Below are positions 7,232-32,582 of a stretch of 32,582 nucleotides of DNA, piece after piece. The notes under the pieces are model-generated. The model searched no databases. It worked only from the letters and a program-made list of their open reading frames with translations, and was not told where the DNA came from. The stretch is from positions 1-32,582 of the forward strand of contig JANLFX010000032.1 in assembly GCA_024653325.1 (NCBI GenBank), read 5' to 3'. Both the position numbers and the translations under genes were made by a program. The stretch comes from Anaerolineae bacterium (GTDB taxonomy: Bacteria > Chloroflexota > Anaerolineae > JACIWR01). Numbering within the stretch: position 1 is the first letter of the stretch; each line of letters begins with the position of its first letter.

Positions 7232-7687
7232 TCAATGGGATACCTCAGAAACGGCGGCAGTTGATCCGGAGACATAGTCTTCGATCCAAAGCACCCAGGG
7301 TAGACGGTCCCTGACAGCGTTATACAGGCGGCGATCTCCCGTCACCAATTTGCTCCCCGTTTCCTCAGCCAGTGCCAGACAGGCCCCATCATAAGCTGAC
7401 CGGTCATAAGCGTAGGCCAGTTCCCAGGCCCGCTGCCAGGAAACCGCTGCTGTTGGAATACCCAGCTCTTCAAAGGCACTAAGAATTTCCTGCCCTTTCT
7501 CCGGATGAATACGATCGCGCCTCACTGCCTGGAGAATAGCGTTAACCACCTCATAGGGAAGCAAGGTGGGCGCCAAAAGCTCAATTTCCTCCTGGGCATA
7601 TGCCCGGATAATCGCCTGAGCTTCTGCATGCCCTTCCTCATCAGGGAAGAACCCCTTTAGCACTACGCTGGCATCTATGACGACCAT
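7232..7687 (-). CDS. PIN-domain (VapC-type) toxin
   Basis: MVVIDASVVLKGFFPDEEG ... AYDRSAYDGACLALAEETGSKLVTGDRRLYNAV, typical PIN acidic residues. Confidence 0.85.
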   Translation of the reverse strand: MVVIDASVVLKGFFPDEEGHAEAQAIIRAYAQEEIELLAPTLLPYEVVNAILQAVRRDRIHPEKGQEILSAFEELGIPTAAVSWQRAWELAYAYDRSAYDGACLALAEETGSKLVTGDRRLYNAVRDRLPWVLWIEDYVSGSTAAVSEVSH

Positions 7688-7941
7688 AGCCGTTCGTCCA
7701 GCTCCTTTCGAGAAGCCTCATCCAATTCCGTGGCGGTCACGCCAACCCCGGCCAACTCACGGGAAAGGCGCACCATGTTCGAATAGCCCCTCTGTCGCCG
7801 CAGGCGTTCATACTCACCAAAGGGCAGGATCACCGCATCTGGTTTGCCTCGTCGGGTTATAATCACTGGCCCTTCTCGCGCGTGCCTGAGCAGTTTGGAA
7901 AAGCTGCCCCTGGCTTCGGCAATGGAAACCCTCACAGTCAT
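7675..7941 (-). CDS. Phd/YefM-family antitoxin
   Basis: MTVRVSIAEARGSFSKLLRHAREGPVIITRRGKPDAVILPFGEYERL; overlaps the start of the PIN toxin. Confidence 0.85.
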   Translation of the reverse strand: MTVRVSIAEARGSFSKLLRHAREGPVIITRRGKPDAVILPFGEYERLRRQRGYSNMVRLSRELAGVGVTATELDEASRKELDERLWSS

Positions 7942-14287: not shown

Positions 14288-14418
14288 AGGCCCGCACACT
14301 ACACTCCTCTCAGGACACACGGCCTCACAGGCCTCACAGGCTTGCCAGTGTTCGACAGTCGAACAGCAAACCTACAGCAAGGCGGGAAAAGGCGTCCAAT
14401 CTGCCACGGAGAGCGCAT

Positions 14419-14447
14419 TTGCCCCCGCCTTACATCTGTGCTACAAT
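14419..14447 (+). promoter_or_regulatory. sigma70-like promoter
   Basis: TTGCCC-N17-TACAAT with TGTGC extended -10, upstream of 14515 gene. Confidence 0.6.
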
Positions 14448-14514
14448 AGCGCCCGGCGCGTTGCCGAGAACATCTGTCAGCCCGAAATATGAACCTGTCA
14501 GCAAGAGGTGCATC

Positions 14515-14706
14515 ATGGAAAAACCCCAGGAAGTCGAACACAATCCCATTTGCCCGTATTGCAATCAGGAAATCCCGTACCTGAACCTGCACAACTGGCG
14601 CGTGAAGGGTCTGGTTTTCAGCGAGACCGGGCGTATCGGTGCGTTTTCATGCCCTCATTGCAAAAAACTCCTGGGCGTGGCCAGCATCGCCTGGGGGAAA
14701 GAATAG
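14515..14706 (+). CDS. small zinc-ribbon-like protein
   Basis: MEKPQEVEHNPICPYCNQEIP...AFSCPHCKKLLGVASIAWGKE, two CxxC motifs. Confidence 0.65.
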   Translation: MEKPQEVEHNPICPYCNQEIPYLNLHNWRVKGLVFSETGRIGAFSCPHCKKLLGVASIAWGKE

Positions 14707-14723
14707 GCATTTGAGGAACTGGA

Positions 14724-15266
14724 ATGTATCGAGTAGCCATCTTCATTGACGGCGGGTATCTGGACAAAATCCTGCGCCGGGAACTGGATAACATGCAGGT
14801 GGACCTCGACGAGCTGGCCCGGGCCATCGCTGCTACCATTCACCCCACCGCTGACATTCTCCGCACATACTATTACCACTGCCTGCCTTACAAGAGCAAT
14901 CCACCAACCCCGGAAGAGATCGAGCGCTTTGAAGCTATGGAAAGCTTCCTGGATGCTCTCAATCGCCTGCCCCGCTTCGTCGTCCGCCTGGGCCGGCTTG
15001 CCCGCCGTGGACTGGATGAGGATGGGCGGTTTTCCTTCGAGCAAAAGATGATAGACGTGTTGCTCAGCATAGATTTGGTGCAAACGAGCCTCAAGGGCAA
15101 GATCACCCACGCGGCCATTGTGGCCGGGGATTCGGATTTCGTCCCGGCCATCGAGGTGGCCAAGAACGAGAGCGTGGCCGTCTGGCTGTTCCACGGCAGC
15201 CAACTGCACAATTCCCTGTGGGAAGTGGCCGACGAACGGATCGAGATTGCCCGCCTGTTCGGCTGA
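14724..15266 (+). CDS. NYN-domain (LabA/DUF88-like) putative nuclease
   Basis: MYRVAIFIDGGYLDKIL...KMIDVLLSIDLV...AAIVAGDSDFVPAIEVAKNESVAVWLF. Confidence 0.85.
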   Translation: MYRVAIFIDGGYLDKILRRELDNMQVDLDELARAIAATIHPTADILRTYYYHCLPYKSNPPTPEEIERFEAMESFLDALNRLPRFVVRLGRLARRGLDEDGRFSFEQKMIDVLLSIDLVQTSLKGKITHAAIVAGDSDFVPAIEVAKNESVAVWLFHGSQLHNSLWEVADERIEIARLFG

Positions 15267-15301
15267 ACCCCCCTGAGCAAAACAAGACCAGGAAAAGCCG
15301 G

Positions 15302-15338
15302 ATCACCCCGCGAAAATCGCGGGGTGATTTTGTTTTTT
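15302..15338 (+). terminator. intrinsic terminator
   Basis: ATCACCCCGCGA-AAA-TCGCGGGGTGAT-TTTGTTTTTT. Confidence 0.92.
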
Positions 15339-15475
15339 CGTGTCTTTATCAAAATCCATTAGTCATGCATCGTTGTCTTTCAGCCTTTTTTACGCCCATA
15401 TTTACCCCCAGCATACGCCGACTTTACTCCCAAGCTCTCAAAGTTATTGTATACTGAAACGCGAATTGAAAATCT

Positions 15476-15730
15476 GGGGGGCCTTCGCGGCCTCCTTTTT
15501 ATTTTATTTCAGCCCTTTCGCCCCTGAGACCTGCTCATCAGTCGAGGATACACCAGACTTCAGGGGCAGCCAGGGGCCGAAAGCGAAAAACAAGCCTGGG
15601 GGGCTTAACAGCCCCCCTTTTTATTTAGCCCTTTCGCCCCTGCACCCCGCTCACCCGATGGCGGCACCCTGATGGGACGGGCGAGACGGAGGACGCGCCA
15701 GGCCTCCGGAGCGGGCAGGAGGGACGAAAG
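15476..15730 (+). promoter_or_regulatory. two tandem structured modules (hairpin + U-tract + AGCCCTTTCGCCCCTG) upstream of archaellin
   Basis: GGGGGCC..GGCCTCC-TTTTTATTTTATTT and GGGGGGCT-TAAC-AGCCCCCC-TTTTTATTT, each followed by AGCCCTTTCGCCCCTG; each CTTTCG has a downstream CGAAAG partner. Confidence 0.5.
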
Positions 15731-15859
15731 GAGCGATGCCAAGGAGGTGATCGAAAAAAACAGACTACTGCTTCCGAGCCAATAACTAGCTGGCAACCAG
15801 CAACCAGAATCCTTCAACAAGTATCCAAGAAAAGCATAAAAACACAAAAGGAGCATAAA

Positions 15860-16429
15860 ATGAACCCCCTGAAGAAAATGATGAAAGACGAAAGTGGTAT
15901 CACCGCCCTGGAGACGGCGATTATCCTGATCGCCTTCGTCGTGGTCGCTGCCGTCTTCGCCTTCACCATCCTCTCCGCCGGCACCTTCACCACCGAGCGC
16001 AGCAAAGAAGCCGTCTACGCCGGCCTCTCCGAGGTGAGAGGTTCCCTGGAACTGCGCGGCAGCGTCATTGCCAACGGCATCACCAGCACCGAAACTATCA
16101 CCAGCGTCGTCTTCACCCTGGCCAACGTCGCCGGTGGCGAGCCCGTGGACTTCTCCACCACCAACCGTGTGGTCATCATCGAGTACCGCGACACCAACCA
16201 GCGCCAGGAGATCACCGATTGGTCGGTGAACTGGCTGGGCTACAATGACGGCGATAGCCTGCTGGAAGAGCGGGAACTGGTGGAGATCACCTGCCCATTA
16301 GGTAGCCTATCCACGGCCCTGGGCAAGAACACCACCTTCGTCGTCGAAGTGAAACCGCCCAGTGGCGCCGTTGTCAACATCCAGCGGACCACGCCCTCGG
16401 GCATTGACCCGGTGATGGACCTCAACTAA
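15860..16429 (+). CDS. arlB: archaellin (archaeal-type flagellin) with class III signal peptide
   Basis: [50 protein letters not shown]...; conserved archaellin N-terminus and beta-rich C-terminus; position before arl genes. Confidence 0.85.
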
Positions 16430-16474
16430 CCAAACAGGGCCTGAAGACGGGTCACCCGCCAGGGCCCCAACAGA

Positions 16475-16510
16475 GCGGTTCGGCCGGGCGACGAGGTTCG
16501 GCCGAACCGC
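16475..16510 (+). terminator. stem-loop immediately after archaellin gene
   Basis: GCGGTTCGGCCG...CGGCCGAACCGC perfect 12-bp inverted repeat. Confidence 0.6.
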
Positions 16511-16630
16511 CAGTTTCCAATCGAGTTTCTTTCTCGGGGCCCTTGCGCCCCAAATCCAAGCAGGTTATAAGGCACGGCCAAGCCAAGAATTCATATAACC
16601 CGGTCTCGTCGCTCATTATCGAGCACAGAC

Positions 16631-16674
16631 AACTGCCCCGTCTCACTTGGCCGTGCCGGCGGGGCAGTTTTTTT
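16631..16674 (+). terminator. intrinsic terminator between archaellin and the downstream arl genes
   Basis: AACTGCCCCG-N19-CGGGGCAGTT followed by TTTTT. Confidence 0.7.
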
Positions 16675-16734
16675 GGACTCGTTCTTTGAAAATCATCGCA
16701 ATCCTCACCCCTGAAATAAAGAAGGGAGGTTCCC

Positions 16735-17343
16735 ATGGAACTGGAACAGAGAGTAAAGGCTCTTGAATACGACATGAAAATTCTGAAGAACGAAATCCAG
16801 AGGACATTGCTGGATATTCAGGAACAAATACTTATCCATTACTACCCGTCCCTCAGGACAGAGGAGACGGCTCCCTCGGAAGGCATCATCCAGGCCCTGG
16901 AATCGGTCCGCGCCAAGCGGCGGGATTTACCCCAGGAAGCATCGGCCTCGCCCATCAAGAGAGTCTCGCTCGATGAGATCGGCGAAGAGCAGGGAGAAGA
17001 CAACCCGCCTTTGGATGAGGAGTCCGTCGTCGTTCAGCCCACCACAGACCCGGACAAGGATATTGTCATGCGCCTATCGGGATGGGTGAGTAGTACCGCA
17101 AGGAAAATAGGGGGAGAGCGCACGGGCAAACTGATCCAGGCATACACGAACAGGGGCATCATCTCCTCAGAACTGGAAAGCCCATTACTCCGGCTCGTCG
17201 GCCTGATCACCGACGATGAGGCCCCCAAAAAGGTGGCGGTCAACGAGGTGCTCAAGGCCGTCCTGCACCTGAACGAGCTGCTGGGACGGGATAATAATGC
17301 CGAAGAAGCTCTCTCCTTGATAGAGGAGGCAGAGCTTGGATAA
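16735..17343 (+). CDS. archaellum ArlD/E-like protein with N-terminal coiled coil
   Basis: N-terminal MELEQRVKALEYDMKILKNEIQRTLLDIQEQ; C-terminal RLSGWVSSTARKIGGERTGKLIQAYTNRGIISSELESPLLRLVGLI resembles the FlaD/E domain pattern; lies between archaellin and arlF. Confidence 0.5.
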   Translation: MELEQRVKALEYDMKILKNEIQRTLLDIQEQILIHYYPSLRTEETAPSEGIIQALESVRAKRRDLPQEASASPIKRVSLDEIGEEQGEDNPPLDEESVVVQPTTDPDKDIVMRLSGWVSSTARKIGGERTGKLIQAYTNRGIISSELESPLLRLVGLITDDEAPKKVAVNEVLKAVLHLNELLGRDNNAEEALSLIEEAELG

Positions 17344-17806
17344 AACCATCGTCACCGCTCTCCTGATTATAGCTGGCGTGGTATCCGTGGTCCTGGTGTT
17401 CAACACCATCTATCCGGCCGTGCTGCAAAGCGGCAATGCCATCGTCGGACGAGGAAAGAGGATAGACGAACACCTGCAAAGCCAGATCGAGATCGTCCAC
17501 GCGGTGGCTTATGGTGATGTAACCAAAGTCGTCTATGTATGGGTCAAAAACGTTGGTTCTCTTTCCATCGGGGCCGTGGAGCAATGCGATGTCTTCTTCG
17601 GCCCGGAAGGCAATTTCACCCGCATCCCCTACGGCGAGGGAGCCTCCCACTGGACATACACGGTGGAAAACGGCACCAACTGGACTTCCACGGCAACGGT
17701 GAAAATCACCATTGATTATCAGGACTACCTGGTAAATGGGCAAAGATACTTCGTCAAGGTAGTCCTGCCGAACGGGGTTTCCGACGAATACTGCTTTAGC
17801 AAGTGA
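17336..17806 (+). CDS. arlF: archaellum stator-type protein ArlF
   Basis: N-terminal TM helix (MDKTIVTALLIIAGVVSVVLVFNTIYPAV), beta-sandwich with VYVWVKNVGS; TTG start overlapping previous gene. Confidence 0.7.
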   Translation: MDKTIVTALLIIAGVVSVVLVFNTIYPAVLQSGNAIVGRGKRIDEHLQSQIEIVHAVAYGDVTKVVYVWVKNVGSLSIGAVEQCDVFFGPEGNFTRIPYGEGASHWTYTVENGTNWTSTATVKITIDYQDYLVNGQRYFVKVVLPNGVSDEYCFSK

Positions 17807-17809
17807 GCT

Positions 17810-18325
17810 ATGGACACGGCAATCACCGCACTGATTATCATCACTCTTCTGATACTGGTAGTACTCACCCTGTCCGAGCAGTACCTCCTGGCCCAGGACA
17901 TCATCTCCGAGTCCTGGCAGAGGATGGAAGCGCGGATGGATGAGCAAGCCAGAACTGATCTCACGCCAGTGGGGGCCACAACCCTCAGTGGAGGTTCTGT
18001 GGTGGAGGTCACTCTCAGGAACGATGGAACTACCAAGCTGGCCGACTTCGACCAGTGGGATGTTATCCTCCAGTATCGCGGCATTGATGGCGGCTACTAT
18101 GCAACGTGGTATCCTTATGGTCTGGGACAAAACGAGTGGTCAGTGTACGACATTTTCCTGGATGCCCCAACCACTCCGGAGGTTTTCGAGCCGGACATTC
18201 TCAATCCAGGAGAAGAGGTAGTGATTTGGGTATCGGTCGCGCCTGCCGTGGGGGAAGGTACCACCAACCTGGCAACCGTAGTCACCCCTAATGGCATCAG
18301 CGCCTCGATACATTTTACCCGTTAG
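17810..18325 (+). CDS. arlG: archaellum stator-type protein ArlG-like
   Basis: MDTAITALIIITLLILVVLTLSEQYLLAQ TM helix, VEVTLRNDGTTKLADFDQWDV...VVTPNGISASIHFTR; paralogous to the preceding protein. Confidence 0.65.
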   Translation: MDTAITALIIITLLILVVLTLSEQYLLAQDIISESWQRMEARMDEQARTDLTPVGATTLSGGSVVEVTLRNDGTTKLADFDQWDVILQYRGIDGGYYATWYPYGLGQNEWSVYDIFLDAPTTPEVFEPDILNPGEEVVIWVSVAPAVGEGTTNLATVVTPNGISASIHFTR

Positions 18326-18374
18326 CAGAACGGGTTGGCAACCTGATCGTCGTTTTTTGGTAAAGGGAAGGAAC

Positions 18375-18875
18375 ATGACAACGAAATCGGGATCGGAAAC
18401 CGGAGGCGGCAGGGAAGTCCAGTTGCTCACCTTCAAGCTGGATGACCAGGAATATGCCCTGGACATCACCAACGTCGTCCAGGTCGTGCGCATGGTGGCT
18501 ATCACCCCGATACCCAAAGCTCCGGAAGTCGTGGAAGGGGTGATCAATCTGAGGGGCAAAGTCATTCCGGTCATTAACCTTCGCCAACGGTGCGGGCTGC
18601 CGACCAGGCCCTACGGTCTGAACGACCATTTGCTGATCGCTCGGATCAACGACCAGGTGATGGCCTTGATCGTGGACGTGGTCTCCGAGATGTTAACCCT
18701 GCCGATGAGCGATCTGGATTTCACCTCGGAGATTGGGCCGCAGAAAATGGAATTCATTTCGGGAGTGGGCAGGTTAAACGACAAATTGATCCTGGTCCTC
18801 GATCCCAACGTGCTGCTGGCCTGCGAGGATCAACAGCGGCTGACAGCAGCCCTGGCGAGTACATCATCGTCGTAG
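18375..18875 (+). CDS. cheW: CheW-like coupling protein
   Basis: QLLTFKLDDQEYALDITNVVQVVRMVAITPIPKAPEVVEGVINLRGKVIPVINLRQR. Confidence 0.95.
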   Translation: MTTKSGSETGGGREVQLLTFKLDDQEYALDITNVVQVVRMVAITPIPKAPEVVEGVINLRGKVIPVINLRQRCGLPTRPYGLNDHLLIARINDQVMALIVDVVSEMLTLPMSDLDFTSEIGPQKMEFISGVGRLNDKLILVLDPNVLLACEDQQRLTAALASTSSS

Positions 18876-18914
18876 GATGAGATGGTATCTCGTCCAACAC
18901 CAAGCGGAATTCAC

Positions 18915-20393
18915 ATGAGTAACGAGGAGTTCGAACTGACCCAAACGGATTACGAGCGCTTCCGGGACCTCATCCTGGAGAGGAGCGGCCTGTATTTCCC
19001 GGAAGAAAGGCGACAAACCTTGAGCAGAGGTCTGGCCGAGGCTTTGCGCGCGTCTTCGCGGAATAACCTGGACGAATACTATGATTTGCTGCGCAAAAGT
19101 CCTGTGGCCAGCCACGAGTGGGACTCGCTGGTCAGCACCCTGACCGTGGGCGAGACCTATTTCTTTCGCAACAAAAGCCATTTCGACGCCCTGGCTCAGC
19201 ACATTCTGCCGGAGATCATCACCCGCCAGGGACTCCTGAACCGGCGTATTCGCATCTGGGGTGCTGGCTGTGCCACCGGCGAAGAGCCTTACTCCGTGGC
19301 CATACTCCTGCGCGAATTGATCCCGAACCTGCACAGTTGGAATATCCTGATCCTGGCCACCGACATCAACCGGGAGGCGTTGCGCAAAGCCCGCGAGGGT
19401 GTATACGGGACCTGGTCCTTCCGTGGCGTCGAAAAGCGCATCCAGGAGCGTTATTTCCACCCTAATGGCCATGGACAGTACATCTTGGATAATGAAATCA
19501 AAAATATGGTCACTTTCGATTATCTGAACCTGGTGGAGGATTGTTATCCATCTCTGGTCACCAACACCCGCGGGATGGATTTAATCCTCTGCCGCAACGT
19601 GACTATTTACTTCAGCCCAGAGGTGACCCAAAAGGTGGTAACCAGGTTTTACAACAGCCTGACGGGGGGAGGGTGGTTTATCCCGGGCTCTTCGGAACCT
19701 AACATGGTGTTCTATCGGGATTTCCAGCAAAAGAACTTCCCCGGCGCCGTGGTTTACCAGAAGCCCAGGATGGAAACGAAAGCGATGCGGAAGCCAGAGT
19801 TCGAGTTACAGATACCCACGACGCCCGTGGTAAAGGCTACCGAGCCGCTTCTCAAGGGTTCAGAGGAAGGCAAGGAAAAGCCATCACCGGCGCCCGATCC
19901 CTACCAGATAGCCCTGGAATTGGTGCGGGCCGGACGATTAGACGACGCATTGCTCAGACTGTACGAGAAGCTCGACCAGGATCCTGATTTTGTGCCCACA
20001 TACCACATGCTGGGCAAGATATATGCCAACAAGGGTGACCTGGAAGAGGCGCAGAATTGGTGCGCCAGAGCTATCAAGAAAGACAGGCTGCATCCTCAGC
20101 CCCATTACATTCTTTCCCTGATTTATCAGCAGGATGACCTGCCAGACATGGCCCTCCAGGCCTTGAAAACGGCTATCTACCTGGATCGGGAATTTATCCT
20201 GGCCCACTATCACCTGGCCCAACTCTACCGGCAGCAGGGAAAGAAGAGGCAGGCTTACAAGTCGTTGCAGAACGTCCAGCGCCTGCTGGAAGGCAGATTG
20301 CCTGACGAGCCCATCCCTGAGGGCGATGGCTTGTTAGCTGGCCGTCTGCTGGAATTAGTCAAAACAGAGCTGGCAAGCGAGCAATGGACCTGA
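18915..20393 (+). CDS. cheR: CheR methyltransferase with C-terminal TPR repeats
   Basis: WGAGCATGEEPYSVAILL, ILATDINREALRKAREGVYGTWSFRG, DLILCRNVTIYFSPE; TPR region DPDFVPTYHMLGKIYANKGDLEEAQNWCARAI. Confidence 0.95.
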   Translation: MSNEEFELTQTDYERFRDLILERSGLYFPEERRQTLSRGLAEALRASSRNNLDEYYDLLRKSPVASHEWDSLVSTLTVGETYFFRNKSHFDALAQHILPEIITRQGLLNRRIRIWGAGCATGEEPYSVAILLRELIPNLHSWNILILATDINREALRKAREGVYGTWSFRGVEKRIQERYFHPNGHGQYILDNEIKNMVTFDYLNLVEDCYPSLVTNTRGMDLILCRNVTIYFSPEVTQKVVTRFYNSLTGGGWFIPGSSEPNMVFYRDFQQKNFPGAVVYQKPRMETKAMRKPEFELQIPTTPVVKATEPLLKGSEEGKEKPSPAPDPYQIALELVRAGRLDDALLRLYEKLDQDPDFVPTYHMLGKIYANKGDLEEAQNWCARAIKKDRLHPQPHYILSLIYQQDDLPDMALQALKTAIYLDREFILAHYHLAQLYRQQGKKRQAYKSLQNVQRLLEGRLPDEPIPEGDGLLAGRLLELVKTELASEQWT

Positions 20394-20463
20394 GGTAAGC
20401 GCAGGGTGAAAAGCCAGGCCAACGAGCAAGGGACGGACACGCCAGTCCCCAGGAGATGAAAAC

Positions 20464-21282
20464 ATGGAGCCAAAACTGAACTGCTGGGAATACAAACGCT
20501 GCGGTCGAGAGCCTGGCGGGGCCAGGGCATCCGAACTGGGAGAGTGCCCGGCGGCAGGGGTTACCGTCACCGATGGAACGAACAATGGGAAAAATGGAGG
20601 GCGGATTTGCTGGGCCATCGCCGGCACGTTATGCGGTGACCAGGTGCAGGGCACGTTTGCTCAAAAGCGACGCTCTTGCACACAATGCGACTTCTATCAC
20701 CTGGTCAAAGCGGAAGAGGGGAGAGATTTTGTGCTGATGCTGGAAAGAGACATAGACAGAACTTTGTCTGCCGATAAGGTGCGGGCCATCCTGGAAGAGC
20801 GGGCGCGCGCCCTGGCCAGGTCTACCGAGACCAGGACCGGCGAGACTCTGCGGGTCGTCGTCTTCTCCCTGACCAATGAGACCTACGGCATACCCACCGA
20901 CTACGTCAGAGAGGTACAGCCGCTGCGAGAAATAACCCCCGTGCCCTGCACCCCTGGCTTCGTGGTCGGCGTGATCAATATTCGCGGGTTCATCTACTCG
21001 GTCATAGACGTCCGCGATTTCCTGGGCGTGCCCAGACGGGAGATCACCGAATTAACCAAGGTCATCCTGGTCAACGCCGCCGGGCTGGAGGTGGGCATCC
21101 TGGCCGACGATGTATCGGGGGAGATAAGCGTACCCCTGTCCGAGATCAAGTCTTCACTGGCTCCCCGCGCGGGCATCAAAGAAGAGTACACTCAGGGAGT
21201 GACCAAAGACATGTTAATCATCCTCAACCTGGAAGCGCTGATGCGCGATGAACGGATGGTGGTTCATGAAGAAGTCGTGTAA
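20464..21282 (+). CDS. two-CW-domain and CheW fusion protein
   Basis: N-terminal NCWEYKRCGREPGG...CPAA...GKNGGRICWAIAGTLCGDQVQGTFAQKRRSCTQCDFYHLV; C-terminal CheW VVVFSLTNETYGIPTDYVREVQPLREITPVPCTPGFVVGVINIRGFIYSVIDVRDFLG. Confidence 0.85.
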   Translation: MEPKLNCWEYKRCGREPGGARASELGECPAAGVTVTDGTNNGKNGGRICWAIAGTLCGDQVQGTFAQKRRSCTQCDFYHLVKAEEGRDFVLMLERDIDRTLSADKVRAILEERARALARSTETRTGETLRVVVFSLTNETYGIPTDYVREVQPLREITPVPCTPGFVVGVINIRGFIYSVIDVRDFLGVPRREITELTKVILVNAAGLEVGILADDVSGEISVPLSEIKSSLAPRAGIKEEYTQGVTKDMLIILNLEALMRDERMVVHEEVV

Positions 21283-21327
21283 ATTCAGATTTCCGAAGTC
21301 TGGACTTTTAATAAAAAGGAGTGGCCG

Positions 21328-23688
21328 ATGTTAGAAAAAGCGTTATCCAGATTCAAATTGCTGCCCAAGATCGTTGCCCTGGGACTGGTAGTGAACCTGT
21401 GCTTTGGCCTCGTCCTGGGGTACCTGTATACCCAGTTTAGAGCGAGCCAGTACGAGGCCAGGCGGGAAGAAACCCGAAACCTGGTATTGACCGCTTACAG
21501 CGTGCTGGAGTATTACGCTCAACAAGCCAGAGAGGGTCTCATCTCCGAAGAAGAAGCGAAATCCGCAGCCCTGGAAGCGGTCAAGGCCATGCGTTACGGG
21601 GAGGACGATTATTTTTGGATCAACGATCTGGAACCAAAAATGGTTATGCACCCCAACTATCCGCCAGAAAAGAAACCCGAGTGGTATGCCACCAACGGGC
21701 TGGCCGATTACGCCGATCCGACCGGAAAAAAGTTGTTCGTGGAGTTCGTTAAAGTCTGCAACGAAAAGGGACAGGGTTTCGTGGACTATTATTGGACCAG
21801 GCCGGGCCAGGAGCGGGAAAAACCGGTTCCCAAAATCTCCTACGTGAAACTGCTGCCCGATTGGGGATGGATTGTCGGCTCAGGCATTTACGTGGACGAT
21901 GTGGAAGGGGAAATAGCTAGACTGACCCGCATGGTACTGCTTATTGCAGCAGGAATCACCGGGCTGTCTATCGTCCTGTCGTTTGCCCTGGCCCGCTCTA
22001 TCAGCAAACCGCTGGCCCTTATCGTCCAAGGTGCTCAATCGTTGGCCCAGGGCGACCCGGACATGACCGGGCTTGACTACGCCCAGACGCTTAAGGTCTC
22101 CACGCGCCAGGATGAGTTGGGCGAAATTGGGCGGGCTTTTGGTCGCCTGGAGCAATATTTCAAGGCCAAATCAAGCGCCGTACAAAAGATTGCCCAAGGG
22201 GACCTCAATATAGAAGTCCCGGTAGCGTCCGAGAAAGACATCCTGGGCCAGGCCATGGTGGAGATGAAAGATAACATCAGCGCCCTGGTAGCCGACGCCA
22301 ACATGTTGGCCGAGGCGGCGGTGGAAGGTAAACTGGATACCCGCGCCGATGCCGCCAAGCATCAGGGTGAGTATGCGAAGATCATCCAGGGCATCAACAG
22401 GGCCCTGGATTGGATAATCGGCCCCTTAAACGTGACCGTTGACTACATCGCGCGCATCGCCCAGGGCGACATTCCCAAAGAGGTGGAGGTCGAATACAAG
22501 GATTGGGAGTGGAAAGGCGCTTTCAAAAAGGTCAAAGACAATCTTAACACCTGTGTCAATGCCATTCATCTGCTGGTTTCCGATGCCAATATGCTGGCCG
22601 CCGCCGCCGCGGAGGGGAATCTGGACGCCCGCGCCGATGCCTCCCGTCATCAAGGCGATTACCGCAAGATAGTGGAAGGCATGAACGCTGCCCTGGAAGC
22701 GGTAATTGCCTCGATGAAAGAAGCCAGTGAAGCCATGGCCCGTATCGCCCGTGGCGACCTGACCGTGCAAATGGACGGTAAGTATCGGGGTGACTATGCT
22801 CTCCTCAGCCAAAGCATTGATTCGATGATCAGCGGCTTAAAGGGAATGACCACGCACATGCAAGAAGGCTCGGTGAACATCAGTTCTGCCACCGCCGAGA
22901 TCCTGGCCGCGGCCAGCCAGATGGCCGCCACCACCCGTGAGCAGGCCTCCGCCGTCAGCCAGATCACCTCGACCCTCGAGGAAATCAGAGCCTCTGCCGA
23001 ACAGGTCGCCCAACGCGCTCAAAGCGTCGCCGATGCCGCCACGGAAGCCGCGCAGGCCGCCCAGCGTGGCACTGCCGCCGCCGAGGATACAATCACCGGC
23101 ATGGAAGACATCCGCAAAAAGGTGGAATCCATCGCCCAGAATATCCTCTCCCTTTCCGAACAAACAACCCAAATCGGCGACATCATTGACACCGTCACCG
23201 ACATCGCTGACCAGTCCAACATCCTGGCCCTCAACGCGGCCATCGAAGCCGCCCAGGCCGGCGAGGCTGGCAAGGGCTTCCGCGTCGTCGCCGACGAGGT
23301 GCGCTCCCTGGCCGAACAGTCCCGCCAGGCCGCTGCCCAGGTTAAGCTCATCCTCGGTGACATCCAAAAAGCCACTAACCTGGCCGTCATGGCCACCGAG
23401 CAGGGGTCCAAGGGTGTGGATGCTGGCGTCGAACTGGTAAACCGTACCGCCCAGACCATTCGCCAACTGGCCGAGACGGTACACGCCTCCGCCCAGGCCG
23501 CCCAGCAGATCGTCGCTGGCGTGCAGCAGCAGACCATCGGCCTGGATCAGATCGCCATCGGTATGCACGACATCAACCAAGCCGCTCACCAGTCAGCGGC
23601 AGGCGCCCAGCAATCCCAGAAAGCCGCCGAGGACCTGAACGAGCTGGCCGCGCAGTTGAAAGAGGTTGTGGCACAGTACAGATTGTAA
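21328..23688 (+). CDS. methyl-accepting chemotaxis protein (single Cache_2-type sensor, repeated HAMP-like modules)
   Basis: YGEDDYFWINDLEPKMVMHPNYPP...GWIVGSGIYVDDVE; MCP hairpin IADQSNILALNAAIEAAQAGEAGKGFRVVADEVRSLAEQS. Confidence 0.95.
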   Translation: MLEKALSRFKLLPKIVALGLVVNLCFGLVLGYLYTQFRASQYEARREETRNLVLTAYSVLEYYAQQAREGLISEEEAKSAALEAVKAMRYGEDDYFWINDLEPKMVMHPNYPPEKKPEWYATNGLADYADPTGKKLFVEFVKVCNEKGQGFVDYYWTRPGQEREKPVPKISYVKLLPDWGWIVGSGIYVDDVEGEIARLTRMVLLIAAGITGLSIVLSFALARSISKPLALIVQGAQSLAQGDPDMTGLDYAQTLKVSTRQDELGEIGRAFGRLEQYFKAKSSAVQKIAQGDLNIEVPVASEKDILGQAMVEMKDNISALVADANMLAEAAVEGKLDTRADAAKHQGEYAKIIQGINRALDWIIGPLNVTVDYIARIAQGDIPKEVEVEYKDWEWKGAFKKVKDNLNTCVNAIHLLVSDANMLAAAAAEGNLDARADASRHQGDYRKIVEGMNAALEAVIASMKEASEAMARIARGDLTVQMDGKYRGDYALLSQSIDSMISGLKGMTTHMQEGSVNISSATAEILAAASQMAATTREQASAVSQITSTLEEIRASAEQVAQRAQSVADAATEAAQAAQRGTAAAEDTITGMEDIRKKVESIAQNILSLSEQTTQIGDIIDTVTDIADQSNILALNAAIEAAQAGEAGKGFRVVADEVRSLAEQSRQAAAQVKLILGDIQKATNLAVMATEQGSKGVDAGVELVNRTAQTIRQLAETVHASAQAAQQIVAGVQQQTIGLDQIAIGMHDINQAAHQSAAGAQQSQKAAEDLNELAAQLKEVVAQYRL

Positions 23689-23745
23689 AACGTGAGGCGT
23701 AAAGAGTCGGGAACACGCACCACAGATCGCCTACGGGAGTGAAAC

Positions 23746-24273
23746 ATGGTTATGCTGGACGATGACATCATGCGCCAATTGCGGGCTACCTTCAAAGCCG
23801 AGGCCGCCGATCACCTTCAGGCCATGAACCGTATCCTGGTGGAGCTGGAAAAAGGATCCAATGGCAGAGAGCGGGTCGAGCTTTTGGAAGAGATTTTCCG
23901 CGAGGCCCACAGCCTGAAGGGAGCCGCCGGCGCTGCCGATATTGGCGATGTTGAGACCACAGCCCACAAACTGGAGAACGTTTTCGGCGCGATCAAAGCT
24001 GGCGAGATCGAACTGACCGCTGACCTGTGCGATGTCCTCTACGAGGCCATTGACGCTGTGGAGCTCATCGTCGAGGCCGTCCTTACCGGTAAAGCCCATG
24101 GACTGGACCTGCCCGACCTGCACGCTCGCCTGGAGGCCGCTGAAAAGGGGCGGATAATAGCGGGAAAGAAGCAAGAGGCAGGAAGCAAGAAACAGGCAAG
24201 GGGTATCCCATGGCATTGGAGAAAGTGCTCATCGTCGAAGATAGTCCCACCGAGGCATTACTGGCCCGGCTGA
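23746..24273 (+). CDS. stand-alone Hpt (CheA P1-like) protein
   Basis: [45 protein letters not shown]; no kinase domain in same frame. Confidence 0.85.
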
Positions 24274-26198
24274 TCCTCGAACGCCAGGGTTACCAGGTCA
24301 GCATAGCCACCGACGGTAAAGAGGGTCTGGTCAAAGCGGCTGAGGAAAAGCCGGATTTGATCATCCTCGATACCATCCTGCCTCGCATGAGCGGCTACGA
24401 GGCGTACCAAAGACTGCGGGTGGACCCCAGGACCGCCGACATTCCGGTGCTCATGCTGCTCACGGATACCGAGACGACGGATACACCGCGCAGGCTAGGA
24501 CTGGACGCCGATGCCTACATCGCCAAGCCATACACCCCACCTCTCCTTCTGGCCGGCGTGGAACAAATCTCCAGGTCTAACGGCAGGCAACCCGAAGACG
24601 CCGACCTGTTTGAAGAGGAAAGGCAACGGTACCATGAGGAGTTACAGAAAGCCAGACGGGAAGCCGAGATGGCCCGGCAGGCTAAAAGTGAATTCCTGGC
24701 CACGATGAGCCATGAACTGCGCACGCCCCTGCATGAGATCCTGGGCATGACCGACCTGGTCCTGAACACCGAGCTGACACCCGAACAGCGCGCCTATTTG
24801 CTCACCACCAAAAACTCGGCTAACGCCCTTCTGGCCATCATCAGCGATATTCTGGAATTCGCCGAAATCGAAAACGGACAGTTGACCCTGGCGGCGGACA
24901 GTTTTGACCTGTGGCTCGCCGTGGAAAAAACAATCCAAATCATGATCCCACACGCCCAGGAGAAGGGCCTGAAATTGTCTTGCCAAATCGCGCCCGGAGT
25001 GCCCCGTGACCTGGTGGGCGACCCGGTGCGCCTGCGACAAGTGCTGACCAGTCTGATAGGCAACGCCATCCGCTTCACCGAACACGGCGAAGTGGCCGTG
25101 GGAGTGGAGGAAATCGTCCCATCCCAGGAAAAGGCCGGGGGCGAGGCGGAACTACACTTCCACGTCCGCGATACCGGCATCGGCATCCCTAAGGACAAAC
25201 AAGACGTTATCTTTGAAACCTTCCGTCAGGCCGACAGTTCCACCACCCGCCAATACGGCAGCATCGGCCTGGGACTGGCCATGGCGAAGAAACTGGTGGA
25301 ACTGATGGGCGGTCGCATCTGGGTGGAAAGCGAGGTCGGACAGGGTAGCACCTTTCATTTTACCGCCAGGTTCCAGCGCCTGGACCAGGCTCTCCACACC
25401 CCGGATACAACCGCTGGAGCCACAGAACCAGAACAGCCGTGGTCATTGCGGATACTGGTCGCCGAGGATAGCCCGACCAATCAATTGATCGCCCAGGCCA
25501 ACCTGAGCAAGGCGGGCCACACAGTACAAATCGTCGAGAACGGGCAGAAAGCCATCGCGGCCTGGGAACAGGGGGACTTCGACCTGATTCTGATGGACAT
25601 CTCCATGCCTCAGATGGACGGCCTGGAGGCGACCCGGATCATCCGCGAGCGGGAAAAACAAACCGGGCGACACATTCCCATCATCGCCATGACCGCTTTC
25701 GCTTTGAAAGAGTACCGGGAAAAGAGCCTGGCCGCCGGCATGGACGCTTATGTCTCCAAACCGGTGAGCGCCGGGGAACTCCATCGGGCCATCGCGCCAT
25801 TCCTGAAAAAGGCAGGACCCGGCGAGCTACCAGAACCTCCCCGGCCAGCGGTTGACCTTCACGAGGCGTTGGAAGTGGTGGATGGAGATGTAGACCTTTT
25901 GGAAGCGGTGACGGAGGTATCCCTGGCAGAATACCCGGAACACATCGCCGCCCTGAAAGAGGCCCTGGCCCGCCAGGACGCCCCGGGCGTGGAAGCCGCG
26001 GCCCATCGGCTGAAAGGGGTGCTGGGCAACCTGGGCGGTTTGACCGCCCGGGACGTGGCCCAGCGCCTGGAGACCATGGCCGAAGAGGGTCGCCTCGATG
26101 GCGGTGAGATTGCTCTGGCAGCATTGGAAGCGGAGATCGAACGAGTGGTGGCTTTCTATTCAGACCCGGCATGGAAGCAAAAAGCAGTGGAAAGCTGA
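24210..26198 (+). CDS. hybrid histidine kinase REC-HisKA-HATPase-REC-Hpt
   Basis: [14 protein letters not shown]...; [66 protein letters not shown]. Confidence 0.93.
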
Positions 26199-26209
26199 GG
26201 AGTATAAAC

Positions 26210-26641
26210 ATGAGCAGACAGGCGCGCATCCTGGTCGTTGACGATGATAAACCCACGGTGATGATCATCTCCAGTGTCCTGCAGAAACAGGGGTACGAAG
26301 TGCACACCGCCTTCGACGGCAAAGCCGGGCTGGAAAAGGCGCGAGAGCTGAAACCAGACCTCATCATCCTGGACATTATGATGCCCCTGATGGACGGTTA
26401 CCAGGTCTGCCGCCGCCTGCAGAACGATCCAGAGACTGCGCGCATCGCCGTTCTGATGCTCACGGCCAAGGGGGGCATTGACGAGGACGTGGAACGGCAG
26501 TACGAATTTGCCACCCGCGTCAAAGACCGGTTAGCGGGCTTCGATTCCGGAGCAGTGGATTTTCTGACCAAACCGGTCAAAGCCAAAGAAGTGGCCCAAC
26601 GGGTGAAATCGCTGCTTTGGGCCAGCGGATTCCCGGTCTAA
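26210..26641 (+). CDS. stand-alone receiver protein with extended beta4-beta5 segment
   Basis: [17 protein letters not shown]...[14 protein letters not shown]...[43 protein letters not shown]. Confidence 0.93.
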
Positions 26642-26660
26642 CCATCCCTGTGGAGGAACG

Positions 26661-29624
26661 ATGACCATTTCCGATCCCATTTTGATCGTTGACGATGATC
26701 CGGAGATACACGGCCTGCTACGGGCCTGCCTCAGCCCTTTGGGACATGAGATCGTGGCTACCGATAATGGCCGCCAGGGGTTGGAAATGCTCCAGACCGG
26801 CCAATTCAGCGTGGCCATCCTGGACCTTATGCTCCCCGACCTCAACGGGATGGAGATCCTACGCCGCATCCGGAAAGAGCGACCCGAGATAGAGATAATC
26901 GTGCTCACCGCTTACGCCTCCCTGGAGACAGCCATCGAGGCCATCCGGCTGGGAGCCTACGACTACGTGACCAAACCGTTCTACTCCGACACCATCCGCT
27001 CGGCGGTCAAGAGAGCGGTTGAGAAGCAGCTTCTGGCCCTGGAGCGTCGGCGGGCAGAACAGGCGCTGATCCGCAACCTGGAGGACCGCCTGGGCACCGA
27101 GGAAGCCCTCCGCCAAAGCAACCTGGAACTGGCCCTGCTCCACCGCGCCAGCCAGACCTTCAGTTCGACCCTGGAACTGGACAGGGTGCTGGCCACCATG
27201 CTGGAAGAAGTGCGCCACCTACTGGATGCCGTCCTTTGCTCGGTCTGGCTGATTGACCCGGAGACGAATGAACTGGTCTGCCGCCAGGCCACGGGCCCCC
27301 AACACGAGCTCCTTCACGGCTGGCGGCTGTCACCGGAACAGGGGCTCGCCGGTTGGGTAGCGCAAAACGGGCAGAGCCTCGTCGTGGCCGATGTCCAGGC
27401 CGATGAACGTCACTTCAGCGGCGTGGAAGAGAAAACCGGCTTGCCGCTGCGTTCCCTGCTCAGCGTCCCGCTACGGGCCAAACGGGGCGTGATCGGCGTA
27501 CTACAGGTATCAGATACGAGCATCGGGCGTTTCAAACCCACCGACCTGCGCCTGCTGGAGCCGCTGGCCGCGGCTGCGGCCGTAGCCATTGAGAATGCCC
27601 GGCTGTACGAGCAGGCTCAGCGGGAGATCGCCGAACGCAAGCGCGCCGAAGCAGCGTTACAAGAAGCCAAAAACGCCGCCGAGGCCGCCAGCCAGGCTAA
27701 GAGCGAGTTCCTGGCCCGCATGAGCCACGAGATTCGCACTCCCATACACGGCATCATCGGCATGGCCGACCTGATGCTGGACACCCCGCTGGCCCCGGAA
27801 CAACGCGAATACCTGCAAATACTCAAATCCTCCGCCGACTCGCTGATGACCATCGTCAACGACATCCTGGACTTCGCTAAAATCGAGGCCGGACGGTTGG
27901 AGCTGGAGGAAACCGACTTCGATCTGCGCACCATTATTGAACAGGCCGCAGACATGCTGGCCCTGCGCGCCCAGCGAAAAGGACTGGAACTGGTCTGCCA
28001 TATCCCACCCCAGGTGCCCACGGCGCTGGTGGGTGATCCAGGACGGCTGCGCCAGGTGTTGCTTAACCTGATCGGCAACGCCGTCAAATTCACGGCCCAG
28101 GGCGAGATCGTCGTCCAGGTAGAAACAACCTCTGAAACCGAAGATAACGTGACCCTCCACTTCTCGGTCCGCGACACCGGGATAGGCATCGCCACGGATA
28201 AGCAAGAAATGATCTTTCAGGCTTTCTGCCAGGCCGATGGTTCCACCACCCGCGAGTACGGCGGGACCGGGCTGGGGTTGACCATCTCGCAGCAGTTGGT
28301 GGAACTGATGGGCGGGAGCATCTGGGTAGAAAGCCAGCCGGGAGTGGGCAGCACGTTCCACTTCACCGTGAGATTGAAGAAACAGCCCGACGATGGGCGC
28401 AGCGCCGGCGAGGAATTTAACTGGGCAGGACTACCGGTGCTGGTGATTGACGACAACGCCACCAGCCGCCTGGTATTGCGCGAGACGCTGGCCTATTGGG
28501 GCTGCGCGGTCACCGAAGCGGAGAGCGGCCCGGCGGGATTACAAGAGTTCGAAAGGGCCCTGGAAGCATCACACCCCTTCCATCTGGTATTACTGGATGG
28601 AACGTTGCCGGGCATGGATAGTTTCACCGTGGCTCAGGCAATTCTGAAACACCCCGTCCCGGGGAATTCCATAGCGCTGCTGTTTCCCTCGGACGGTGTG
28701 CAAAGCGACGTGGCCCGCTATCGCCAACTGGGAATCACCACCCACCTGGTCAAGCCGGTGAAAAAAGCCGAGTTGTTTCACATCGTAGCGAACACCGTGG
28801 GCACCGCCTCGCAAGCCAGCGACGAACCTATCCGAAGCCACCCAGCCACCAGCCCGGAATCGGGCCTACGTATTCTGTTAGCCGAGGACAACGTCGCCGC
28901 CCAGTTGATCGGCAAAAAAGCGCTGGAAAAGGCCGGTCACACAGTACAGGTAGCGGGCAACGGCCTGGAAGTCCTCCAGGGGCTGGAAAAAGAAAAATTC
29001 GACGTGGTGCTGATGGACGTGGAAATGCCGCAGATGGACGGCCTCGAGGCCACGCGAGCCATCCGCCAACGGGAAGCAAAATCCGGACACCATATCTTTA
29101 TCCTGGCCATGACCGCCTACGCCTCGAAAGAGGATCGGGCAAGATGCCTGCAGGCAGGCGTTGACAGCTACCTGGCCAAGCCGGTAAGCCCGGACAAATT
29201 GCGCGACGCGCTGGCCCGACTCCTGAACACGGAGCGGGACAGCGACGCTGCTCAACCGGTTGATCTGGAAATGGCTCTGGAGGCGGCCGGGGGCGATTGG
29301 GAACTCCTGCGCGAGGGAGTTGAGTTGTTCATGGCCCACGACTATCCCAGGCATATGGCCGCCCTCGTTCAGGGCATCGAACTGGGAGATGCCCAGGCCG
29401 TCAAAGCGGCCGCGCACGGCATGAAGGGGGCCCTGGCCAGCTTTGGCAGCCGTCCGGCGCGGGACGTGGCCCAGCGCATCGAAACCCTGGGACGAGAAGG
29501 TGACCTGGCCGGGGTTCAGGGCGCACTGGCAGAGCTGGAAACAGAGGTGCAACGGTTCGCGGCCTTCTTCGAGCAACCATACCTGGAAATCTCACTTCCT
29601 CTGGAGAAAAAGCATGAGTGCTAA
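26661..29624 (+). CDS. hybrid histidine kinase REC-GAF-HisKA-HATPase-REC-REC-Hpt
   Basis: [17 protein letters not shown] segment; [79 protein letters not shown]. Confidence 0.93.
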
Positions 29625-30114
29625 AACGCGCATCCTAGTGGTTGATGACAATCGTTCAGTGGTGCGGCTGATCGAAGCCCTCCTGCAAAAAGAAGGCTTC
29701 GAAGTCCTGACCGCTTTCGATGGCCTGGACGGGCTGCAAAAGGCACGGGAGGAAAAACCCGACCTGATGATCCTGGACATCCTCATGCCCAAAATGGATG
29801 GGTATGAGGTCTGCCGCCTGTTACAGAACGACCCGCATACCGCCGCCATACCGGTGCTCATCCTCACCGTCAAAGGGCAGGTGGATGAGCCGGGTCTGGA
29901 TGACCAGGACGTCGAAGCTCGCATCCAGGAGCAAATGGCCGGATACGAGGCCGGGGCCGTGGACTTCCTGAGCAAGCCCATCAAAGCGAAGACGTTGTTG
30001 GAGCGAGTGCGAACCATGCTCTGGTTCGATCACTTTTCCGTGAAGGATATTTGTGAGGGTAAACCCGAAGCGGCAGTCAGCCCGCTTCCTCTGCCCGGAA
30101 ACCCAGATTACTGA
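29614..30114 (+). CDS. stand-alone receiver protein with extended beta4-beta5 segment (paralogue of 26210)
   Basis: [19 protein letters not shown]...[14 protein letters not shown]...[43 protein letters not shown]. Confidence 0.92.
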
Positions 30115-30133
30115 AACGTAAGCAGGTGTGCCA

Positions 30134-31201
30134 ATGCCCGCAAACAAGAAAATCTTGCTGGTCGAGAGCGACCCCAAACTGGTAGAACTTATCAGATACC
30201 CTCTCGAAGACGAGGGTTATGCGGTGATGTGGAGCAAAGATGGCCCTGAGGGATTACAGGCCGTCATCAAATTTCAGCCTGACCTGATCCTGGTGGGCTT
30301 CAAGCTGCCGAGCATGAAGGGCAACTCTTTCGCTCGTCGCGTGCGCAAAGACCCGGTGACCAACCACATCCGCATAGTCATGATCGCCGACGAAAGCCAG
30401 TTGGAAAACCTGGAGATCGGCCCCGGCTCGGCTATAGACGATTTCCTCATCCAACCTTTCGGCACCGTGGAGCTGATCACCAAGATCAAGCCCCTGCTGG
30501 TCAGCAGCGACGAGCTGGAGGGATCCATCATCTCCACCGGCAACGGCGAACTGGATGGGAAAATGGGTGGCGGCATCCCGATAAAGTCGCTGACCCTGAT
30601 CGAGGGCGATTCGGGGGCCGGCAAATCCGTGCTCGCCCAGCAGATGATGTATGGCAGTCTGGAAGACGGCTACAAAGTGACCCTGTTCAGCAGTGAAAAC
30701 ACGGTGAAAAGCCTGGTCAAACAAATGCGCAGCCTGAACCTGGACATCATGGACTACCTGCTGCTGGACAAAATCAGGATATTCCCCATCGAAACCTCCC
30801 GTCTGGGCAAAGATGCTCCTCCCACCTTGATCGAGGCCATGAAAAAGGAAAGGAGACGGGATATGATCTTCGTGGATTCCCTCACTTCCTCCATTCCGAG
30901 CTCCTCGGATACAGAAGTACTGGCCTTCTTCGAGGCGTGTAAGCGGCTCTGCGCCGATGGCACCACGGTGGTCATCGTCGTCCACTCGCACGGTCTGACC
31001 AGGGAACTGCTCACCCGCATCCGCTCCCTGTGCGACGCTCACCTCCAGCTCCGCACCGAGGAAGTGGGGAACAAATTGGTCAAGACGCTGGAGGTCACCA
31101 AGGTGAGGGGCGCGGAGCAAAGCACAGGCAACATTGTCAGCTTTGAAGTCGAACCCGGCTGGGGGATGCGCATCATACCTATCAGCAAAGTTCGGGGGTA
31201 A
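30134..31201 (+). CDS. arlH: pseudo-receiver-ArlH fusion (KaiC-like archaellum ATPase homologue)
   Basis: Receiver-like N-terminus KKILLVESDPKLVELIRY...DLILVGFKLPSMKG; then ArlH core LIEGDSGAGKSVLAQQMMYG, DMIFVDSLTSSIP, adjacent to ArlI. Confidence 0.85.
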   Translation: MPANKKILLVESDPKLVELIRYPLEDEGYAVMWSKDGPEGLQAVIKFQPDLILVGFKLPSMKGNSFARRVRKDPVTNHIRIVMIADESQLENLEIGPGSAIDDFLIQPFGTVELITKIKPLLVSSDELEGSIISTGNGELDGKMGGGIPIKSLTLIEGDSGAGKSVLAQQMMYGSLEDGYKVTLFSSENTVKSLVKQMRSLNLDIMDYLLLDKIRIFPIETSRLGKDAPPTLIEAMKKERRRDMIFVDSLTSSIPSSSDTEVLAFFEACKRLCADGTTVVIVVHSHGLTRELLTRIRSLCDAHLQLRTEEVGNKLVKTLEVTKVRGAEQSTGNIVSFEVEPGWGMRIIPISKVRG

Positions 31202-31206
31202 GTTCT

Positions 31207-32544
31207 ATGGCTCTGGTAAAACTGCCCTTCCCAATTGAAAACACCGGTGACGGGGTCAATAACGGCCCTGGCAATAACCTCAGTTCCATGCTGCCCAAAA
31301 ACCTGCAGCAGGCCTGTGAGGAATACCCATTTCTGGCCGAGTACCTGCGCTACGTCCCGTTCGACCAGATCGGTGTGCCCGACTATTACCCCAAAGTCAC
31401 CCGCAACCTGAAGGACCTGGAGGAACGCAATCTCATCTACAAGGCCAGCAAGGGGCTTTTTGTGCACATCTACCCGGACCCTTCCGGCGAGCGAGACCTT
31501 TACATCCCGATAGAGCCCCATACCACAGTGAATCTGGATGCCATCATCCCAGAGGTCGAGCTCAAACTTCTGGACTGGACGGAGAAAATCGGTGCCGAAG
31601 AAACGACGGAAGGGAAAAAGCAAAGGCTGCTGGAAGCCATAGACAACATCGTCACCACCAACGGCACGAGTGGGAAAGTCAAAGTGACGCCCCGCGAGTT
31701 GGAAGCCCTCAAGTACGTCATGGTGCGGGACAAGGTCGGCTTTGGGCTTCTGGAGCCATTGCTTCTGGATCCTAACATCGAGGACATAAGCTGCAGTGGC
31801 GTGGGATCCATCTTCATCGAGCACAAGGTCTTCAAAAGCCTGCAAGCAGCTCTCGTCTTCCCTACCGAGGAGGAACTGGACGAGTTCGTCATCTGGCTGG
31901 GCGAGTGGATCAAGCGGCCAGTTACCGTCCGCAACCCCATCGTGGATGCCACGCTCCCCGATGGCTCGCGTATCAATATCGTTTATGGGAGCGACGTATC
32001 CAGGCGGGGCAGCAACTTCACCATTCGTAAATTCGCCGGTACTCCGCCCAGCATCATGAACCTCATCGAATGGGGCACGATGGATTACATGATGGCCGCG
32101 TACCTTTCCTTCATCCTGGAGGCGGGTATGAACGTGTTCGTCGTGGGAGCGACGGCCTCAGGCAAGACCACCACGATGAACGCCATCACCACCTTCATCC
32201 TGCCGGACAAGAAAATCGTGAGCATCGAGGATACGCCGGAACTCCAGGTGCCCCACAAAAACTGGATCCGAGAGGTGACCCGGGGCACGGGAAAAGACCA
32301 GAAAGGCGCCGAAGTGGGCATGTTCGACCTGCTGAAAGCGGCCCTCCGTCAGCGTCCGGATAGAATCATCGTGGGCGAGATCCGTGGTGAAGAAGGGGCC
32401 ATCGCCTTCCAGGCTATGCAGACCGGACACGGTGTGATGTCCACGTTCCACGCCGCGTCCGTGGAGCGACTCATCCAGCGCCTCACCGGCGACCCCATTA
32501 ACATACCAAAGACCGGGATGGTTCAGAACTATAGTTTCCGGTAA
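31207..32544 (+). CDS. arlI: archaellum motor ATPase ArlI (type II/IV secretion ATPase family), apparently truncated
   Basis: FVVGATASGKTTTMNAI; QRPDRIIVGEIRGEEGAIAFQAMQTGHGVMSTFHAASVERLIQRLTGDPINIPKT; then GMVQNYSFR-stop in place of the expected C-terminal region. Confidence 0.88.
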   Translation: MALVKLPFPIENTGDGVNNGPGNNLSSMLPKNLQQACEEYPFLAEYLRYVPFDQIGVPDYYPKVTRNLKDLEERNLIYKASKGLFVHIYPDPSGERDLYIPIEPHTTVNLDAIIPEVELKLLDWTEKIGAEETTEGKKQRLLEAIDNIVTTNGTSGKVKVTPRELEALKYVMVRDKVGFGLLEPLLLDPNIEDISCSGVGSIFIEHKVFKSLQAALVFPTEEELDEFVIWLGEWIKRPVTVRNPIVDATLPDGSRINIVYGSDVSRRGSNFTIRKFAGTPPSIMNLIEWGTMDYMMAAYLSFILEAGMNVFVVGATASGKTTTMNAITTFILPDKKIVSIEDTPELQVPHKNWIREVTRGTGKDQKGAEVGMFDLLKAALRQRPDRIIVGEIRGEEGAIAFQAMQTGHGVMSTFHAASVERLIQRLTGDPINIPKTGMVQNYSFR

Positions 32545-32582
32545 ATTGATTGGCTCATCCGGCGAATTTGTGGCAGAATATG

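Follow-up and report, generated by a model that had tools for sequence, protein, structure and literature searches.

We identified, in the archaellum (arl) loci of Anaerolineae, a gene fusion that joins a response-regulator receiver (REC) domain to the N-terminus of ArlH, an apparently undescribed arrangement that is conserved among relatives. The explanation that fits best is an acquired arl locus with REC-ArlH as a candidate bacterial signal-to-motor link, to which we assign a probability of roughly 0.5. At sequence level, this reading builds on the fusion, its conservation, its two separate origins, the adjoining canonical CheY genes and the absence of CheF; the receiver itself would carry the signal to the motor. 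An archaellum in Chloroflexota as such is not new. Gene clusters have been published for 243 genomes, together with a cryo-EM filament structure and swimming in Litorilinea aerophila (PMC12488501, Nat Microbiol 2025), and archaella are also known from SAR202 isolates (PMC10444878). An earlier note made from the DNA letters had likewise mentioned archaella in some Chloroflexota. We found archaellum-type ArlI in 21 of 396 genomes sampled from the class. What is new is a REC-ArlH variant of a known system, of interest as a family and with a signalling role put forward as a hypothesis. The earlier note was right to place any novelty in the architecture but missed both the fusion and the signs of incompleteness (a cut ArlI, no ArlJ and a CheA reduced to P1).

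The window, i.e. the whole 32,582-nucleotide stretch analyzed, is one complete contig (G000:C137) of a 3.86-Mb genome bin with 211 contigs and 93.7% completeness. This genome belongs to a Chloroflexota of the class Anaerolineae, so that the host is bacterial and not an archaeon. The arl locus in this genome is real and starts at position 15860, with all genes on the plus strand in the order given in Table 1. It is of archaellum descent, and we do not claim a complete archaellum for this genome. The proposal of an archaellum locus in a bacterial context was thereby upheld, with profiles matching archaellin, ArlG, ArlF, ArlH and ArlI. Likewise, Pfam confirmed the MCP, two CheW proteins and CheR (with TPRs) that had been named, and the BTAD regulator and NarL-type pair in the first half of the window were confirmed.

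Table 1. Features of the arl locus and its interruption (positions in the window).
Feature	Positions	Strand	Evidence
arlB, archaellin with class III signal peptide	15860..16429	+	Pfam PF01917 1.6e-27; NCBIfam TIGR02537 (archaellin N-terminal domain) above cut-off
ArlCDE-like protein, arlB-arlG interval	16735..17343	+	no Pfam family; phmmer against syntenic archaeal proteins 2.4e-8 to 7.1e-5
arlG, stator	17336..17806	+	PF01917 5.3e-8; ArlG model 4.6e-9, below its cut-off
arlF, stator	17810..18325	+	PF01917 2.1e-7; ArlF model 5.6e-5, below its cut-off
cheW 1	18375..18875	+	PF01584 2.8e-35; ORF open from 18291, start set to the ATG at 18375
cheR with C-terminal TPRs	18882..20393	+	PF01739 1.3e-51
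cheW 2	20464..21282	+	PF01584 8.9e-32
Methyl-accepting chemotaxis protein with Cache domain	21328..23688	+	PF00015 and PF08269
CheA remnant, P1 (Hpt) only; P2-P5 and receiver gone	23746..24273	+	Hpt 1.2e-16 only
Hybrid histidine kinase REC-HisKA-HATPase-REC-Hpt	24210..26198	+	domain profile matches
CheY-like response regulator 1	26171..26641	+	all canonical residues present
GAF hybrid histidine kinase REC-GAF-HisKA-HATPase-REC-REC-Hpt	26661..29624	+	domain profile matches
CheY-like response regulator 2	29614..30114	+	all canonical residues; 13 bases upstream of arlH
REC domain of REC-ArlH	30128..30511	+	PF00072 4.1e-15; REC fold at high pLDDT
ArlH (KaiC-like) domain of REC-ArlH, Walker A intact	30512..31201	+	PRK06067 4.4e-78; PDB 4yds FlaH, sequence match 5.5e-46, fold match 1e-19
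arlI, truncated near residue 437 of about 560	31207..32527	+	NF058587 7.3e-154, model positions 2-405 of 527
End of multi-copy repeat (transposon-like), cuts arlI and ends contig	32528..32582	+	54-55 bases identical at five other places

The Pfam family Arch_flagellin (PF01917) matched all three of 15860-16429, 17336-17806 and 17810-18325 above its curated cut-off, in agreement with the earlier assignment of an archaellin with a class III signal peptide and of ArlF and ArlG homologues; the specific ArlF and ArlG models match below their own cut-offs. ArlH of the window reached 262 bits with the PRK06067 FlaH model (cut-off 194) and 214.4 bits with an ArlH-specific model (cut-off 215). For ArlI, the comparison with PilB and TadA that had been suggested came out on the archaellum side: the archaellum FlaI model scored 513 bits compared with 178 for BasE, 163 for TadA and 61 for PilB. 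The match covers residues 45-438 and stays below the 550-bit cut-off, as expected of a cut ORF. A single ArlDE-like gene can be recognized by position and weak similarity to syntenic archaeal proteins, which is the part of the earlier ArlD/E-like assignment that holds. No ArlCDE family profile matched its protein in the Pfam search, and the archaeal syntenic counterparts themselves fall below the PF04659 cut-off, a formal ArlD/E assignment by Pfam failing for both alike. A class III/type IV prepilin peptidase, sought across the genome as had been proposed, was found outside the arl locus on contig G000:C7 (PF01478, 2.0e-17). ATPase and pilin folds are common to all systems of this kind and would also fit genes of another type IV filament (Tad, type IV pilus or bindosome). 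However, this identity is contradicted by the ArlI score gap over BasE and TadA, the presence of an arlH gene, the order arlB-ArlDE-arlG-arlF-arlH-arlI conserved across the loci compared and the full-length ArlI proteins of relatives, which score above the ArlI cut-off; we consider it extremely unlikely.

The sequence evidence for the fusion itself is strong. Positions 30128-31201 form a single ORF encoding a CheY/PhoB-like REC domain (residues 1 to about 125) followed by ArlH, so that the gene annotated earlier as arlH does encode ArlH, though not a plain one. Using ArlH genes from 80 named loci, including eight archaeal loci, we found the same single-ORF REC-ArlH in 13 other Anaerolineae-type loci (L080-L091 and L117), while L099 and L100 carry a different, AtoC/NtrC-like receiver fused to ArlH. 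All remaining ArlH genes of the set, the eight archaeal ones included, are plain and begin directly with ArlH, the archaeal sample being too small to claim absence of the fusion from archaea. In the receiver tree, the 14 main-type fused domains group together in a single clade (SH-aLRT 95) and those of L099 and L100 are placed elsewhere, which points to at least two fusions. Standalone regulators adjoining arlH make up another clade across lineages (support 91). On the ArlH+ArlI tree, the fusion label needs four changes (mean after shuffling, 14.8), a number that would fit two gains plus two losses. One locus, L088, contains a tandem arlH pair (8864-10672), one copy with and one without REC, whose ArlH parts are nearly alike.

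AlphaFold modeling of REC-ArlH returned a REC fold, with pLDDT above 90 over most of the domain, and an ArlH fold whose best PDB match is 4yds, the FlaH of S. acidocaldarius; the relative placement of the two domains is uncertain (pTM 0.60). REC-ArlH shares the KaiC-like ATPase domain and Walker A motif with archaeal ArlH/FlaH (PDB 4yds and 4wia) but differs from them in its N-terminal REC of about 125 residues, and none of the best 60 sequence matches among solved chains contained both REC and ArlH. Within the open-access articles searched, no earlier description of REC-ArlH was found. In common with L. aerophila and other Chloroflexota archaella (PMC12488501; SAR202, PMC10444878), the window shows the arlB, arlCDE-like, arlG, arlF, arlH, arlI order (arl2 type) and no CheF, and the L. 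aerophila archaellum has a cheY homologue, as the window has CheY-like genes. In contrast, neither a REC-ArlH fusion nor a chemosensory operon separating arlF from arlH is mentioned in the main text of PMC12488501, from which the words fused, fusion, CheA and receiver are absent. The window further differs from published Chloroflexota archaella in being without ArlJ and the ArlI C-terminus, and its REC-ArlH differs from the Caldilineaceae locus L095, where ArlH is plain with a separate CheY upstream.

Gene order between arlF and arlH varies among the loci. In most, arlF adjoins arlH; L093, L095 and L105 have one separate CheY-like gene in between; L083, L087 and L089-L091 have one or two CheY-like genes followed by REC-arlH; and in L080, L084-L086 and the window, a chemosensory set lies upstream of REC-arlH. 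The resulting series runs from arlF-arlH over arlF-cheY-arlH and arlF-cheY-[REC-arlH] to a chemosensory operon before REC-arlH. We infer from this series that cheY settled beside arlH first and that the fusion and the larger insertions came afterwards. The copy in the window is useful mainly as the degraded end of the series.

In archaea, CheF binds phosphorylated CheY at the ArlCDE ring (PMC9126983). CheF has been described as absent in Chloroflexota, where another component may have evolved, and the signal-to-motor link was left open (PMC12488501). Our searches agree with this absence: none of 21 arl genomes had a PF04283 match above cut-off (best sub-threshold match E=0.55), with three archaeal controls positive. 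Autophosphorylation of archaeal ArlH has been reported, in work cited in PMC12488501, to inhibit its oligomerization and its interaction with ArlI, and ArlH oligomerization is therefore a plausible target of the receiver. We propose that an arl locus was acquired by Anaerolineae-class Chloroflexota and that its arlF-arlH interval then took up bacterial genes of two-component and chemosensory systems. The Cache MCP and the hybrid kinases would signal to the arl-linked CheY-like regulators, the ArlH receiver or both, and the receiver would alter ArlH oligomerization or docking on ArlI or the ArlCDE-like ring. The changed state of ArlH would in turn change rotation or switching, the job of CheY-P with CheF in archaea. 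Such a system would resemble the archaeal CheY-CheF-ArlCDE switch (PMC9126983) in that a CheY-type receiver acts on the archaellum motor base, and would differ from it in having no CheF and a receiver covalently built into ArlH.

The phospho-Asp and Lys retained in most fused receivers and the canonical CheY genes adjoining arlH speak for a signalling link; against it, relatives with plain ArlH manage without the receiver and the modeled placement of the domains is uncertain. More tentatively, at somewhat below even odds, part of the Anaerolineae may control the archaellum through a receiver built into ArlH that replaces CheF and arose at least twice, after cheY had settled beside arlH. The link need not belong to chemotaxis. 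Of 16 fusion-bearing genomes, CheA and MCP occur together in eight and are both missing from seven, and the remaining one, the window genome, has an MCP but no CheA; we reject REC-ArlH as a chemotaxis-specific trait based on the seven that lack both. If the link is true, these genomes would suggest control by ordinary histidine kinases. Archaella passed from archaea to Chloroflexota without CheF, and a receiver fused to ArlH in two lineages is a concrete, testable candidate for the link; if borne out, it would show an imported machine rewired to bacterial signal transduction and suggest ArlH as a motor control point.

The receiver residues bear on whether the domain signals or has a structural role. 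At the positions of the acidic pair, phospho-Asp, Thr and Lys, relatives' fused receivers mostly read E, x, D, A, K. All 14 main-clade receivers show E-x-D in place of the acidic pair, the second acidic residue being lost, and most have lost the Thr. The phospho-Asp is gone in three of the 14 (the window; L088, lost; L082, Glu). Standalone CheY-like regulators beside arlH have the canonical D/E-D-D-T/S-K. Positions fixed in fused and not in separate receivers cluster at alpha4-beta5-alpha5, the usual output or dimer face of receivers. From this clustering and the residue pattern, a partner-binding or dimerizing role of the fused receiver seems well motivated, while phosphorylation control is uncertain. 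The same losses, and the location of fusion-specific conservation on this face and not at the active site, favor a pseudo-receiver, i.e. a constitutive dimerization or docking module that would help ArlH assemble in the bacterial cell independently of a phosphorylation signal. Against this, 11 of the 14 still have the phospho-Asp and 11 the Lys, and the independent fusion in L099/L100 retains D-D-D-K; we regard a pseudo-receiver as a serious but distinctly less probable reading than a signalling link. In the window, the corresponding residues are E, S, G, A, Q, with the phospho-acceptor Asp replaced by Gly, the second acidic residue by Ser, Thr by Ala and Lys by Gln. As this receiver is without the residue set for phosphorylation (acidic pair, phospho-Asp, Thr/Ser, Lys), it could act there at most independently of phosphorylation.

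The window's copy of the system is probably degraded or rewired also in other respects. Its ArlI match ends at residue 437 while relatives' ArlI proteins have 559-596 residues. ArlI had been read earlier as ending at 32544; the identity stands, but a natural end there is rejected since ArlI runs on for over 100 residues in every full-ORF relative and the DNA from 32528 is that of a multi-copy repeat. The five other places where the repeat occurs (G000:C135, C204, C87, C29 and C47) have differing flanks, and four run to the contig end. It probably represents one end of a mobile element at which several contigs are broken, "transposon" referring to copy number and varied flanks only; a 143-residue reading of a longer copy had no Pfam, NCBIfam or plasmid match. 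The ArlI C-terminus is on no contig of the bin. ArlJ, whose gene would be placed just past the contig end and which the earlier note had suggested looking for, was not found in the 93.7% complete assembly using a query that matches six of six relatives. Further, the P1 domain of CheA corresponds in alignment to the first 145 or so residues of the CheA of relatives, a protein of 777-820 residues that comprises P1, dimerization, ATPase, CheW-like and receiver domains and sits before the hybrid kinase, with CheB and a CheY-like regulator in between in L080. In the window, P1 is directly joined to the hybrid kinase, and the CheA catalytic core, CheB and subsequent CheY of relatives are missing there. 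Whole-genome profile searches found no CheA dimerization domain (H-kinase_dim) and no full CheA (dimerization, ATPase and CheW-like domains) elsewhere in this genome, and only one MCP match, the one in the locus.

Taken with the lost receiver residues and a same-genus genome (G001, 89% complete) in which no archaellum-type ArlI was found, the missing parts of ArlI, ArlJ and the CheA-CheB-CheY segment make a decaying remnant slightly the likelier description of this locus, even though its other genes are open reading frames matching their families and the missing end could sit on an unbinned contig. A remnant here is compatible with REC-ArlH as a signal-to-motor link in the family. The truncation of arlI may instead be an assembly or binning artefact, with the arlI end and arlJ on an unbinned contig or on a strain variant. 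The repeat at several contig ends and the 211 contigs would fit such an artefact, but the remaining ArlI or ArlJ is on no contig of the bin and a repeat inside arlI still needs explaining; we give this explanation a little under an even chance. Unless assembly or binning dropped the missing segment, the motor in this genome is probably incomplete. The window's copy is probably not the one for testing a signalling role of REC-ArlH.

Several further observations were made in the window and in related loci. At 4053-4334, beside a histidine kinase, the window encodes a small protein similar to the Frankia Franean1_4349 ribosomal peptide family (9.4e-9, under the Pfam cut-off), and its minus strand carries a Phd/YefM antitoxin gene paired with a PIN toxin gene at 7232-7941. 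ArlF has one or two C-terminal Cadherin_3-like domains in a sister clade whose ArlH is plain, with E down to 1e-43 (L096 8820-9950; likewise L101, L097 and L114), possibly an envelope anchor. L096 also has an FHA-GAF-histidine kinase downstream of arlJ and a prepilin peptidase in the arl neighborhood (the two at 14408-16090 and 16109-16771). L080 too has a peptidase near arlJ (14848-15549), whereas published Chloroflexota work places the prepilin peptidase outside the locus.
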